Below are positions 34,258 through 40,800 of a stretch of 64,000 bases of DNA, one piece after another; the stretch's first letter is position 1; each line of letters begins with the position of its first letter. Below the pieces are notes generated by a model, which was not told where the DNA came from, searched no databases, and saw nothing but the letters and a program-made list of their open reading frames with translations. Origin of the DNA: Lota lota. Its lineage: Eukaryota; Chordata; Actinopteri; Gadiformes; Lotidae. The stretch spans positions 536,001 through 600,000 of the forward strand of contig JACYXH010000212.1 of NCBI GenBank assembly GCA_026745465.1, written 5' to 3'. A program made the translations under genes and the position numbers.

Positions 34258-34585
34258 ATGAGCTCAGTTGTTGAAGATGAAATCCCCTTTTGTTTTATCC
34301 AGACAAGAGATACTAACGCCTGGAAGGCAACAGCAAGAGGCCCTGGATGTCTTGTGCTGACAACGTGGACCGTGTGTGTGTTATTGCTGTGTGCAGTTCA
34401 TGTGAGAGCAGAGCATTTTCTACACGAAGCCGAGAATCCACTGGGCTACTGTCAAGGTGAACACGAGTGCCACAGTCACGATGACAAAACAGCAAACCAT
34501 TCGACTTATTCTCAAACGTCCAATGTCACAATCAACACGAGCCACAGCTTGGAGCGTTTCAAAGTGTCCTGTCAGAAGTTGATAG
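34258..34585 (+). CDS. selenoo2: SelO exon 1, intact left copy
   Basis: ATG at 34,258 opens 328 nt ending at donor GATAG/GTAAAA in phase 1. This is the phase needed to join exon 2 at 37,811 and give [13 protein letters not shown]. It encodes residues 1-109: a hydrophobic stretch at 31-49 (LVLTTWTVCVLLLCAVHV), an acidic/His segment, then sequons at N80, N89 and N93 and SLERFKVSCQKLI. The open frame extends 47 codons upstream, but that part looks like UTR. The exon is followed by the right copy of the duplication. Splicing from this donor across to 37,811 would give a full-length protein (inference). Confidence 0.6.
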
Positions 34586-35976
34586 GTAAAAAAAAGTATA
34601 TACCCATGAGGTCACAACGCAAGACCACACAAGAGACTTCTAGTTGTTTCCTTATTAAGTGTCCTTCTCTGTTGCTCTATTCCTGTGACTAGGAGATACT
34701 GTACATCACAGTGTCTCTATCTTTCACCAAGAATGTGAAGTTAAACCCTCTGCCTGATTTGGAAAATTCCAAACTGGAGATAACTTATGTTGACATTTTG
34801 CAGCTTTAAACAAAGCCTATTTTAGTAGAAGTGTGCTATACACCTCCCAAACAGAATTACTTTTAGAAGTTGGAAGAGAGAGATTACTGCAGTCATATAT
34901 TTTTACAGGAAGAGAGTGTATCTTACTTGGCGATCCTAATGTTTTTTTACAGGAAAAGAGTGTATCTTACCTGCCGATTTTCATACAAATGTGACAACTC
35001 CAAGAAGCTCTCTGGTAGTTGTCCTTGTGGAGTTTAATCAGATGTTTGGGTTAATCAACTGATTGAGGAGCCAACAGGGTTGTGTTTCGATAGAGCATAA
35101 TTTCTAGATGTTATGATGGTGTCAGAGAAATACAAAACATGTCTGCCAGGTGTTGCACCTGTAAAATCCTGAAAGTGCACTGGAACAGGGAAACAACTGC
35201 ATAATATGTACCATGAAAAGTTCCTCAAAAGAGTGATTTATTCACACATTAATGGTGCAGGATTGGTCAGGTGTACTAAATATGCGACAGTGTAAATGGG
35301 CTATTTTTAAAGAACATTTGTATCCATGCTTGATACACCATTTTACAAATTAGGATTTAACAGCAGACCAAAATTTACTACCAGTGAGATCTGGTTCTCA
35401 CTGGTACCAGAGACCATCCGTTCTCTATCAACATTTAAAACTTTTGAAAAAGTAGCAAGATTATGATCAGTACAAAACCTTTATAAATCAGGGAAGATAT
35501 AAAACAAAACTATGCCAAAGCTGAATATTATTAAGATGCAGTTAATGAACATGTTTAATTTAGTCTGGGATTTAAGAGTCACGACTTGACAAAGTAATGT
35601 TTGCTAAAAGGGTGAGATCTAGGGTAAGATCTGGAGTGACATCTTGGGTGACATCTAGAAGACAAACTGGGAACTGGTGAGACATCTGCCAGTGAGCAGA
35701 ATGAGAAGATTGGTGAATGGAAGTAATGATGCCTAATTTTATTTTAAAGAAGCAAATTAACATGTTGTTCAAAGATAAAACGGTTTTAGGAGCTCAACAG
35801 TTGGAGGAAACCTTGCAGGAAGGACTTGAAGTGAGGCCTACTGCAGCCTGCATGGTGGGACCACTAGTCACCACCAAGGGTCTCTAGATGAACCAGAAAC
35901 ACATGACCTTCAGGACTGTCTTCAGGAAGTGTAAAGCTTTTTCTAAATGTACTCTTCTGTTCTCACTCCCCGATAG

Positions 35977-36394
35977 CCACTTCCTGGTCCTGTGTATGAA
36001 AACGTCTCAGCTCTGACCAATCGATTGGCTCCTGCACCACAGAGAGAACCAATAGAAGAGCAGGATGACAGTCACTATGCCAGCATCCACACCTTTCTCT
36101 CAGAGAAACAGGAAGTGCCTCGCTGTTTGGCTGGCTCCCGTGTCCAATCAGACCAGACAGATGCAGTCTTTTACTCTGTGATCAACATTAAAAGACCCAA
36201 CGCTGTCCCTGGGTAAGCTTCTCTTGGTATTTCAAAAGAGTCAATAGACTCTACGTTTTGGGACTTCATCAATCCAACGGATCTGCTTTACAGGGTGACT
36301 GAAGTTCTGTCTTCTTTTCAGAGAAAATGACCAGACAGAGGTGGCAGAAACCGCAGCGCTTTACAGCACCGTCAAAAAATGTCCTAGAGATTGA
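35977..36394 (+). pseudogene. Orphan tail exons of receptor C
   Basis: Exact counterparts of the last two exons of receptor C (35,977-36,212 and 36,322-36,394), with splice sites and stop intact but no Ig or transmembrane exons in front. They could serve as alternative 3' exons for receptor C if the duplication is real. Confidence 0.75.
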
Positions 36395-37382: not shown

Positions 37383-37709
37383 ATGAGCTCAGTTGTTGAA
37401 GATGAAATCCCCTTTTGTTTTATCCAGACAAGAGATACTAACGCCTGGAAGGCAACAGCAAGAGGCCCTGGATGTCTTGTGCTGACAACGTGGACCGTGT
37501 GTGTGTTATTGCTGTGTGCAGTTCATGTGAGAGCAGAGCATTTTCTACACGAAGCCGAGAATCCACTGGGCTACTGTCAAGGTGAACACGAGTGCCACAG
37601 TCACGATGACAAAACAGCAAACCATCGACTTATTCTCAAACGTCCAATGTCACAATCAACACGAGCCACAGCTTGGAGCGTTTCAAAGTGTCCTGTCAGA
37701 AGTTGATAG
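37383..37709 (+). pseudogene. selenoo2: SelO exon 1, right copy with 1-base deletion
   Basis: Identical to 34,258-34,585 except that AACCATTCGACTT reads AACCATCGACTT. The exon is 327 nt, so the frame changes after about residue 80, the three sequons disappear and exon 2 would be read out of frame. This is the copy next to the rest of the gene. A homopolymer-type sequencing error is unlikely to be told from a real mutation by sequence alone. Confidence 0.7.
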
Positions 37710-37810
37710 GTAAAAAAAAGTATATACCCCGTCCTTCATGTGACGCATACACAGTGCATAGCAAGTTAAGAGACACGAAACGTATAGACAATGTCACATT
37801 GTCTCTGCAG

Positions 37811-40800
37811 AAGCTTTCCCAGTGGACGAGGTTGATGGCAACTATGTCCGCACTGTGAAGAACTGCGTCTTCTCCAGGTCTCTCCCCACTCCGCTCAAAG
37901 CTACCGTCACGTTGGCTGCAGTTTCCAAGGTGACTCAAACGTTTTTTTTATTATTATTATCAAATGCATAGTAACCAAACGTAGTTTATAGAAGTCTATG
38001 ATCAAAACACCAGGTCCTTCTGGATAATTTACTATGTGATGATATCTGTAAAATATAGAACAAAATATAAATTACAAAAATATCTATGTAATTGGATTTG
38101 ATAAAGTGGAAATATCAAAGACTGCAGTGATCAATGGTATATTGATACACAATAACAACATTACTATAAGTAACCAGCTGTGACTTGGCCACATGAAATT
38201 AATTTGCACGATTTTGTGGTTATTATTATGTGAAGAGCGTCATTGAGGATATCTTGGATTTGGACATCGGAGTCACCCAGACAGATGCCTTCCTGCAGTA
38301 CATCAGCGGTGCTCAACTCATACCTGGTTCGATTCCCTTGGCACACAGATACGGAGGACACCAGGTTAGACCTATTTGGACCTATATGTGTTTTCTTTTT
38401 GAATGACTTCTTGGATCATTTATATTATTTTAAAACAAAACTGAAACAAAGGAAACACTCAAACACATTTTTCATCACTTTCTCAAAATGTTTTGTCTGC
38501 AACTGGATATTGTGTTGAACTTTTCAATGTGAACTACGCCGATGACAACTTAGTTAACAATACAGTTTTCTGAATGTGAATCTCTCTCTAGTTTGGCTAC
38601 TGGTCCGGTCAGTTAGGGGATGGGAGAGCTCACCTGCTTGGCCAGTATACCAACAGGTGGGTCCTGCTTCACAAGACAGAAGCCAACACATAATTCACAA
38701 TAATAATAAGTATAATATAATAGTAACAATGATTTAAAATGCATTGTTTTACAGAAAAGGTGAAATATGGGAACTACAGATCAAGGGCTCTGGCAAAACG
38801 CCATATTCAAGGTAGTGCTGTGGTTCTGGATGTAGAACCACATATATTTATTTACGTTATGAATGTGTTTAATCTTTGAAAAAATATATATGTAAGATAT
38901 CTTGTCTCCCCCACTTTTTACAGAGTAAGAAGTGCTGCTTGTTCAGGGCTAACTTAGCATGATGTACTCCCTCATCGTTTCACGGTGATGCAGGGCTGGA
39001 GATGGTCGTGCGGTGGTGCGTTCGTCTGTCAGAGAGTTCCTGTGCAGTGAAGCCATGCAGGCGCTGGGCATTGCCACCAGCCGAGCCACTAGGTAGGAGG
39101 ACAGCTCTGGATCCATTACTCAGGCCTGATTTCACAATAAAAGCCCCCAATGATGCTAACCACACCGTTGTTGTTTTGTATTCCCGTTAGGCACAGAGAA
39201 TAAAAACATGCATAATATTGTTTATAATGATAATGCAAATACTAAGTCAAATGTTATTTGTATCTATAGAGTTCCTTTCAAAGCAAAATAACACGATTGA
39301 ATCATGCCATATCTTCTTGTGTTCTTGTGTCTTGGTAGCCTGGTGGTGAGCGACGAGTCGGTTTGGAGAGATCAGTTCTATGACGGAAACGTGAGGAAAG
39401 AGAGAGGTACAATTCAAGGTCCCAAAAGATGGAATGTTTTCACTAACTCGCAGAAACGTAACCATCTTGAAGCAGAGGTTTGGAAGTTTCTGTGTCTGTC
39501 TGTGTCCATCGAGCTAAGAGGTGTGTGTGTGTTGTGGTCTTCAGGAGCTGTAGTCCTCAGACTAGCCAGGTCCTGGTTCCGCATCGGATCCCTGGAGGTC
39601 TTGACCCGAGGTGGGGAACTAGATCTCCTCAGGTCAGGATGTTAGCTATCAGTAAGGTGAATGGTCAACTATGTTCTTATGTGTCCGGGCTTGTAATAAC
39701 TGCTTCTTTTTCTTTTCTTTCCACAGGAAATTATTAAATTTCATCATTGAAAACAATTTTCCTGCCATTGCTACAGAGGACCCAGATAAATATTTGGTGA
39801 GAAATAGACCAGAAATCCATTAAAATCAGATTAATAAAAAAGTGCTGTAACTGTTTGAATGAATGACTAAAATCCATTCTGAAACACGTCCATATGAAAC
39901 GGACACTGAAATATAAACCTCCATATTTCTATCATTCAAGGTATTTTATTCCACAGTTGTCAAGGAAACAGCTCACCTGATCGCCCAGTGGATGGCTGTC
40001 GGCTTTGCCCATGGTGAGTACCTGTACCACCTGGTACTTCACAAAGTACTTCATCATAAAGTACTTTATCCCTGACCTCCTTTAACACCCCGTCTGTCCA
40101 CCAGGGGTCTGTAACACAGACAACTTTAGCCTGCTCTCCATCACCATCGACTACGGACCATTCGGCTTCTTGGAGTCCTACGACCCCAGTAAATACAAAC
40201 ATTTAGGTTTCCCTAGCTGGCTCCAAAATGGCCACCTGTTTACCATGTAGTTTACTATGTCAACCATCTTGGATCGGTGTCCAAATTTCTCATATCTTTT
40301 TTAAAACTTTAAAACTTTTCAAAACGTGATACAAATATAATAGCTTGTTCAATAGAAAGGGGAAATTGGCTCTTTGCAAAGACGAGATGGTAGAGGAAGA
40401 AATGGGTGTGTTTAGTTTTGGTAGTTGTGGTTGCAACAGTTTCTATTGTTGCAACAGTTTCTATTGTTGCAACAGTTTCTATTGTTGCAACAGTTGTTAG
40501 TTTTGATAGTTGCGACATCTGTGAAAGATTGAATTCAATTTTATTATAGAATTGTAATTATTAATAGTAATCGTTAATAGTGGTTGAATATTTCGCAACC
40601 TTTGTTGCTTTCTCCCCTAAACAGGATTTAGGAAATTAGCAATTTAGTGTAGGACACAGCTCCAAGCACTTTATAAAGTCAATCTACGTTTTTCTCATTC
40701 TGTTCTTTTATTTTAATTTAATTTTTTTCAAAATAAAAAACACTTGTATCCACAGATTTTGTCCCCAACACCTCTGACGACGAGGGCCGCTACAGCATCG

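Follow-up and report, generated by a model that had tools for sequence, protein, structure and literature searches.

The window analysed here is a 64,000-nucleotide stretch of Lota lota DNA (NCBI GenBank assembly GCA_026745465.1, contig JACYXH010000212.1, positions 536,001 to 600,000 of the forward strand), and all coordinates below refer to it. It contains an intact gene of the SelO family, most likely SELO2, whose probable first exon encodes a strongly hydrophobic leader and a tight cluster of N-X-S/T sequons. The reading frame opens at the ATG at 34258-34260. Splicing of 19 exons with GT-AG sites yields, in frame, a protein of 618 amino acids (aa) that terminates with KVSCSS*, its coding sequence ending at 43715; the exon boundaries were picked by hand, and the canonical sites are thus partly there by construction. 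Exon 1 (34258-34585) encodes residues 1-109 plus the opening base of codon 110; a phase 1 GT donor at 34586, in phase with exon 2, closes it. Exon 12 has an alternative in-frame donor nine bases downstream. A preliminary description of this DNA had annotated the span 34258..37929, which corresponds to the start of exon 1 through the end of exon 2. The splice model comprises the following segments:

34258..34585, plus strand: probable SELO2 exon 1, copy 1 (intact), residues 1-109, with the leader, the sequons and the start of the SelO N-terminal helix
37811..37929, plus strand: SELO2 exon 2
38236-38364, 38592-38656, 38755-38811, 38994-39092, 39339-39406, plus strand: SELO2 exons 3-7
39545-39632, 39727-39796, 39941-40013, 40105-40188, 40756-40885, plus strand: SELO2 exons 8-12
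40975-41019, 41121-41202, 42210-42302, 42484-42563, 42669-42712, 43272-43351, 43593-43715, plus strand: SELO2 exons 13-19

The 19 open exons with their GT-AG sites, at hand-set boundaries, rule out that the gene body is a pseudogene.

The predicted protein matches the Pfam family SelO (PF02696) over residues 147-583 (E 4.8e-120, profile positions 34-462 of 466). Its closest solved structures are bacterial SelO/YdiU proteins (PDB 6eac, 6k20, 6iii and 9jym), of which 6eac is co-linear with residues 127-618 (E 3.3e-108), and the SelO fold is indicated by these solved homologues. The named catalytic residues are identical and the SCSS end is shared, whereas the leader and linker of the fish protein have no match in the bacterial proteins. 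A scan of a contig collection returned three bacterial relatives, 42-44% identical in the alignment, and one scan of viral contigs returned none.

Dudkiewicz et al. defined SELO2 in 2012 as the cysteine-containing metazoan paralogue of SELO (PMC3281104; here and below, published work is cited for the passages considered). Like these proteins, the fish protein has a single C-terminal Cxx> motif and no selenocysteine (Sec). The latter was ruled out, as the codon is TGC and the protein ends in SCSS*, and an Rfam scan of the window gave no family, SECIS included, at the gathering score. Identity to a provisional sequence of human SELENOO is 35.5% over 597 aligned columns, near the 36% reported between SELO and SELO2 in Bos (PMC3281104). 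The provisional sequence of this mitochondrial protein has the SelO domain, co-linear from residue 123, the AMPylation residues and the CSS/USS tail in common with the fish protein, which differs by Cys in place of Sec, a C-lobe about 60 residues shorter and another N-terminus. Because of the SCSS end, the 35.5% identity and the shorter C-lobe, the gene is most likely a fish SELO2 in the 2012 sense. The name SelO2 in the preliminary description applies in that sense, but not in that of Mariotti et al. (PMC3316567), who gave it to a Sec-containing SelO duplicate of zebrafish. SelO is a known family, within which a SELO2 with a secretory leader would be a new form.

All six catalytic residues described for P. 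syringae SelO (Lys113, Glu136, Arg176, Arg183, Asn253 and Asp262; PMC8097203) are kept, namely as K224, E247, R294, R301, N372 and D381; the mapping was made via the printed 6eac alignment, on the assumption that the numbering of that chain is shifted by one. SelO is furthermore regulated by a disulphide between Cys272 and Cys476 (PMC8097203). The equivalent of Cys476 is kept as C616, but that of Cys272 is Pro397 (codon 397, 40764-40766, exon 12), and the fish protein lacks this pair, which is a regulatory and not a defining feature of SelO. YdiU numbering was counted on the printed chains, with 272 in 6iii obtained after subtracting four extra residues and 476 being the third residue from the end. 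Cys occupies position 272 in the 6eac and 6iii chains and in all three bacterial loci, and the redox cysteine of human SELENOO (HVCNAS in the provisional sequence) likewise corresponds to the fish proline; the Ser of the 6k20 chain at this position was taken as an engineered change. The C-terminal CSS is also kept in the fish protein. This tail has been reported as essential for a newly described NAD-splitting (NADase) activity, its Cys being dispensable for AMPylation (PMC13391479). Judging from these residues, the enzyme appears capable of catalysis and no longer subject to the known redox brake, and a brake-free enzyme would make sense in an oxidising compartment.

The features upstream of the SelO domain that bear on such a location are:

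34140..34240, plus strand: probable core promoter, suggested by a CpG peak and GGAAGT at 34206
34189..34257, plus strand: possible N-terminal extension MWRRNAEVPTRNVGRSCNRLNVN from an in-frame ATG at 34189
34348..34404 (codons 31-49), plus strand: hydrophobic segment CLVLTTWTVCVLLLCAVHV, putative h-region of a signal peptide or signal-anchor, 19-residue Kyte-Doolittle hydropathy 2.27
34405..34413 (codons 50-52, R-A-E), plus strand: predicted signal-peptidase site A51-E52, von Heijne score 6.23
34495..34542 (codons 80-95), plus strand: stretch with three sequons at N80, N89 and N93, read from the sequence

Residues 31-49, CLVLTTWTVCVLLLCAVHV, are strongly hydrophobic, as the preliminary description had stated. 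Their mean Kyte-Doolittle hydropathy of 2.27 is the maximum of the protein, compared to 1.12 for the best segment starting after residue 60, and exceeds chance, being equalled in 7 of 5000 shuffles of residues 1-110. The approximate membrane-insertion energy of the segment (-0.87) is the lowest in the protein. The site VHVRA-EH that follows obtains the top cleavage score (6.23), with the runner-up (4.44) lying in the interior. Cleavage scores and insertion energies were derived from approximate versions of the von Heijne matrix and of an insertion scale. When thresholds of hydropathy 2.2 and cleavage score 6 were applied to the 91 open reading frames (ORFs) of the window that start with ATG and span at least 60 aa, nine passed, all of them microsatellite-like by eye; the SelO ORF is not among them because each test began at the most upstream ATG, here 34126. 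The first 30 residues from ATG 34258 hold four acidic and three basic residues with an amphipathic moment of 0.34, a composition unlike a mitochondrial presequence. Whether the segment would act as a cleaved signal peptide or as an uncleaved type II signal-anchor appears about evenly split. The n-region, with its length and its acidic residues, and the hydrophobic run of 19 residues speak for the anchor; V at -3 together with A at -1 speaks for cleavage.

Sequons lie where the preliminary description had placed them, at N80 (N-H-S), N89 (N-V-T) and N93 (N-T-S), all upstream of the domain. When residues 50-110, a segment chosen after the cluster was seen, were shuffled 20000 times, three sequons clustered as tightly 44 times; in draws at whole-protein composition they did so in 5 of 20000. 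The two further sequons, N372 (N-F-S) and N398 (N-T-S), are inside the SelO domain and inherited from the family, as N-M-S and N-H-S/T stand at these places in three of three bacterial loci.

Since the ORF of exon 2 is open from 37762 and has no in-frame Met, an upstream exon is required. The tail of exon 1 (LERF...LI / SLERFKVSCQKLI, followed by EAFPVDE) was aligned by MAFFT, with slight similarity, to the N-terminal helix of the provisional human SELENOO sequence and two bacterial loci, and exon 1 is the probable first exon of SELO2 on this basis. Regarding the start codon, further in-frame ATGs are found upstream at 34189 and 34126, and the first upstream in-frame stop is the TGA at 34102. 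ATG 34258 has an A at -3 and is preceded by two short upstream ORFs (34223-34249 and 34250-34255). Counted in steps of 80-bp windows, CpGs reach 7 for each of the starts 34140 and 34160, compared to 0-3 for starts at 33900-34080 and 34220-34300. Together with the GGAAGT at 34206, which we take to be an ETS-type element, this peak suggests that transcription starts at or after 34189, just before ATG 34258.

Exon 1 is part of a tandem duplication:

31480..34604, plus strand: first unit of the duplication (probable 3' part of an immunoglobulin (Ig)-superfamily gene, SELO2 promoter and exon 1), from repeat comparison
34605..37729, plus strand: second unit of the duplication, matching the first in all but a missing base, from repeat comparison
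37383..37709, plus strand: SELO2 exon 1, copy 2, frameshifted at 37626, with a 101-bp intron to exon 2

The two units, of 3,125 bp each, show no mismatch, and their single difference is a base lacking at 37626, which corresponds to 34501 in copy 1. This deletion alters codon 82 onward, turns N80-H-S into N-H-R and lets copy 2 end in ...KCPVRS*. If the deletion is real, copy 2 can no longer function and the gene has to rely on the distal one. The splice model joins the intact copy 1 to exon 2 over 3.2 kb, a stretch that holds the probable duplicated 3' part of an Ig-superfamily gene, and six AATAAA/ATTAAA signals lie in between. The preliminary description overlooked the second, frameshifted copy (37383-37709), and its gene model requires either splicing of the distal copy across 3.2 kb or a sequencing error behind the missing base. 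Because the other repeat pairs among the 60 listed are 83.6-97.8% identical, the duplication is either far younger or an assembly artefact; we find it simpler to assume an error in the assembly or consensus.

As a separate observation, these other pairs belong to a tandem cluster of similar repeat blocks at 445-33060. Pfam detected Ig domains in three ORFs at 29890-31117, just upstream of the duplication. ORFs 31169-31567 and 32852-33091 have no Pfam match; the latter presumably resembles a CD22/Siglec-type cytoplasmic tail.

We regard entry into the secretory pathway as the best single reading of the N-terminus, with a chance slightly better than even. The luminal or secreted location proposed in the preliminary description is plausible and partly supported: it gains from the leader, the sequons and the intact active site, and loses from the weak cleavage score, a possible Arg-rich extension and the sequon at N372. 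Several observations indeed weigh against it. The proposed signal-peptidase site is the best in the protein, and in this respect the description held, but its score of 6.23 is below those of six out of six known signal peptides used as provisional controls (6.85-12.1) and is less striking than the hydropathy, with 213 of 5000 shuffles of residues 1-110 equalling it, and the n-region is 30 residues long and partly acidic, with four acidic residues. Exon 1 shares with other SelOs a weak homology confined to about its last 15 residues, and the BLAST alignment to the provisional human SELENOO sequence begins at residue 123 without reaching exon 1. The copy of exon 1 that adjoins exon 2, and is expected to be used, is the frameshifted one. 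Leader and sequons were read in one animal SELO2 sequence, that of this fish. The strongest internal objection comes from N372: this catalytic, Mg-binding residue stands within an N-F-S sequon, at which glycosylation would be damaging, and one would expect a SelO in the lumen either to have lost the sequons at N372 and N398 or to tolerate them. The strongest external one is that the SelOs described in the cited passages are mitochondrial or bacterial. SELO was called mitochondrial in all studied eukaryotes, mitochondrial peptides were predicted for human and other vertebrate SELOs, and no transmembrane (TM) segments were detected in SELO proteins (PMC3281104). The earlier statement that the SelOs studied to date come from bacteria or mitochondria is in line with these passages, except that the same paper had already predicted, by TargetP and MultiLoc, cytoplasmic and secretory locations for SELOs of non-vertebrate eukaryotes. 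The secretory reading therefore has some precedent.

Among the alternatives, the most probable, though still unlikely, is that the first exon is wrong or incomplete, with transcripts that begin elsewhere or use a different 5' exon and a main protein devoid of the hydrophobic stretch. A duplication of 3,125 bp with one missing base and no mismatch points to a recent event or an assembly artefact and would fit an unsettled or misassembled 5' end, as would the weak homology of exon 1 to other SelOs. Yet exon 2 without its in-frame Met needs an exon upstream, and exon 1 is open directly upstream, has a phase-matched GT donor and carries a tail that aligns weakly with the SelO N-terminal helix. Less probable again is a form in the mitochondrial intermembrane space, in which translation from ATG 34189 would give a bipartite presequence made of an Arg-rich amphipathic part and a stop-transfer segment. 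This ATG is in frame and has an A at -3, the extension MWRRNAEVPTRNVGRSCNRLNVN contains five Arg and one Glu, and its maximal hydrophobic moment of 0.64 exceeds the 0.34 of the short form and the 0.41 of the N-terminus in the provisional human SELENOO sequence; moreover, the rest of the family is mitochondrial in the passages cited. However, the CpG peak and the GGAAGT at 34206 would put the likely transcription start at or after ATG 34189, and about 30 partly acidic residues separate the Arg-rich part from the hydrophobic segment. We assign a similarly low, marginally smaller probability to an ordinary cytosolic or mitochondrial SELO2, in which the hydrophobic stretch and the sequons would be non-functional parts of a lineage-specific, poorly constrained tail. 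A linker rich in N, S, T and H, the shuffles that reproduced the sequon cluster and the cleavage score (44 of 20000 and 213 of 5000), and the retention of the family sequons N372 and N398 are consistent with this explanation, but the hydropathy, reached by just 7 of 5000 shuffles, is not readily accounted for by it.

Under the secretory reading, residues 31-49 encoded by exon 1 would be recognised by the secretory machinery as a signal for entry into the endoplasmic reticulum (ER). K23 and R27, N-terminal of the segment, would favour an N-in/C-out orientation, so that the SelO domain faces the lumen; there, cleavage after A51 would set it free, or else an uncleaved type II signal-anchor would tether it. 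The linker (residues 52-95) might be N-glycosylated. The luminal pseudokinase could bind ATP upside-down and AMPylate Ser, Thr or Tyr of luminal or extracellular proteins; alternatively, the CSS tail might support the splitting of NAD+. Losing the Cys272 partner would remove a disulphide brake that an oxidising compartment would otherwise keep closed.

Such an enzyme would work much like FICD/HYPE, the ER-luminal AMPylase, which has an N-terminal TM segment (24-44) and a luminal catalytic domain, is N-glycosylated and AMPylates a luminal protein (PMC8097203), but has a Fic fold unrelated to the pseudokinase SelO. The kinase-like FAM69 family of the secretory pathway also enters via an N-terminal TM segment (FAM69A-C, residues 20-50) or a signal peptide (C3ORF58, CXORF36; PMC3696010). 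It is a different family, described as unusually Cys-rich, whereas the fish SELO2 has 7 Cys after residue 51. From the metazoan SELO2 proteins of the 2012 study the fish protein differs by its hydrophobic leader and sequon cluster, as the passages considered report no TM segments and no localisation specific to SELO2 (PMC3281104). A tick study mentions that several selenoproteins carry a signal peptide, and SelO is not named there in the part considered (PMC3840058). Among the titles and abstract openings listed in a literature search, we found no study of SELO2 localisation or activity.

According to a 2021 review, AMPylation in animals is carried out by two classes of enzymes, mitochondrial SelO and the Fic AMPylases, which act chiefly in the ER (PMC8097203). 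SELO2 is present in birds and some mammals and missing from primates and rodents (PMC3281104). We tentatively propose, as a rather doubtful extension, that SELO2 is a luminal or extracellular branch of animal SelO which lost its redox brake, serves as a second secretory AMPylase beside FICD or as an extracellular NADase, and was lost in primates and rodents. If the luminal reading is true, this loss would be the reason why the role of SELO2 has been overlooked. A protein-modifying enzyme would then be placed in a new compartment, and mice and human cells could not reveal this second luminal AMPylase or extracellular NADase. Should the leader be wrong, what remains is an ordinary SELO2 gene whose first exon is duplicated.

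Further ORFs were noted downstream of the gene. On the minus strand, ORF 56482-56850 is like the RIAM (APBB1IP) adapter, which it matches weakly in the PDB (E 0.013). Minus-strand ORF 46509-47075 has no PDB match to RIAM, and we assume that it resembles the end of the RIAM (APBB1IP) PH domain. The GC-rich region at 45326-46167 is open on both strands, with a long proline-rich ORF without Pfam match on the minus strand and a glycine-rich ORF on the plus strand.

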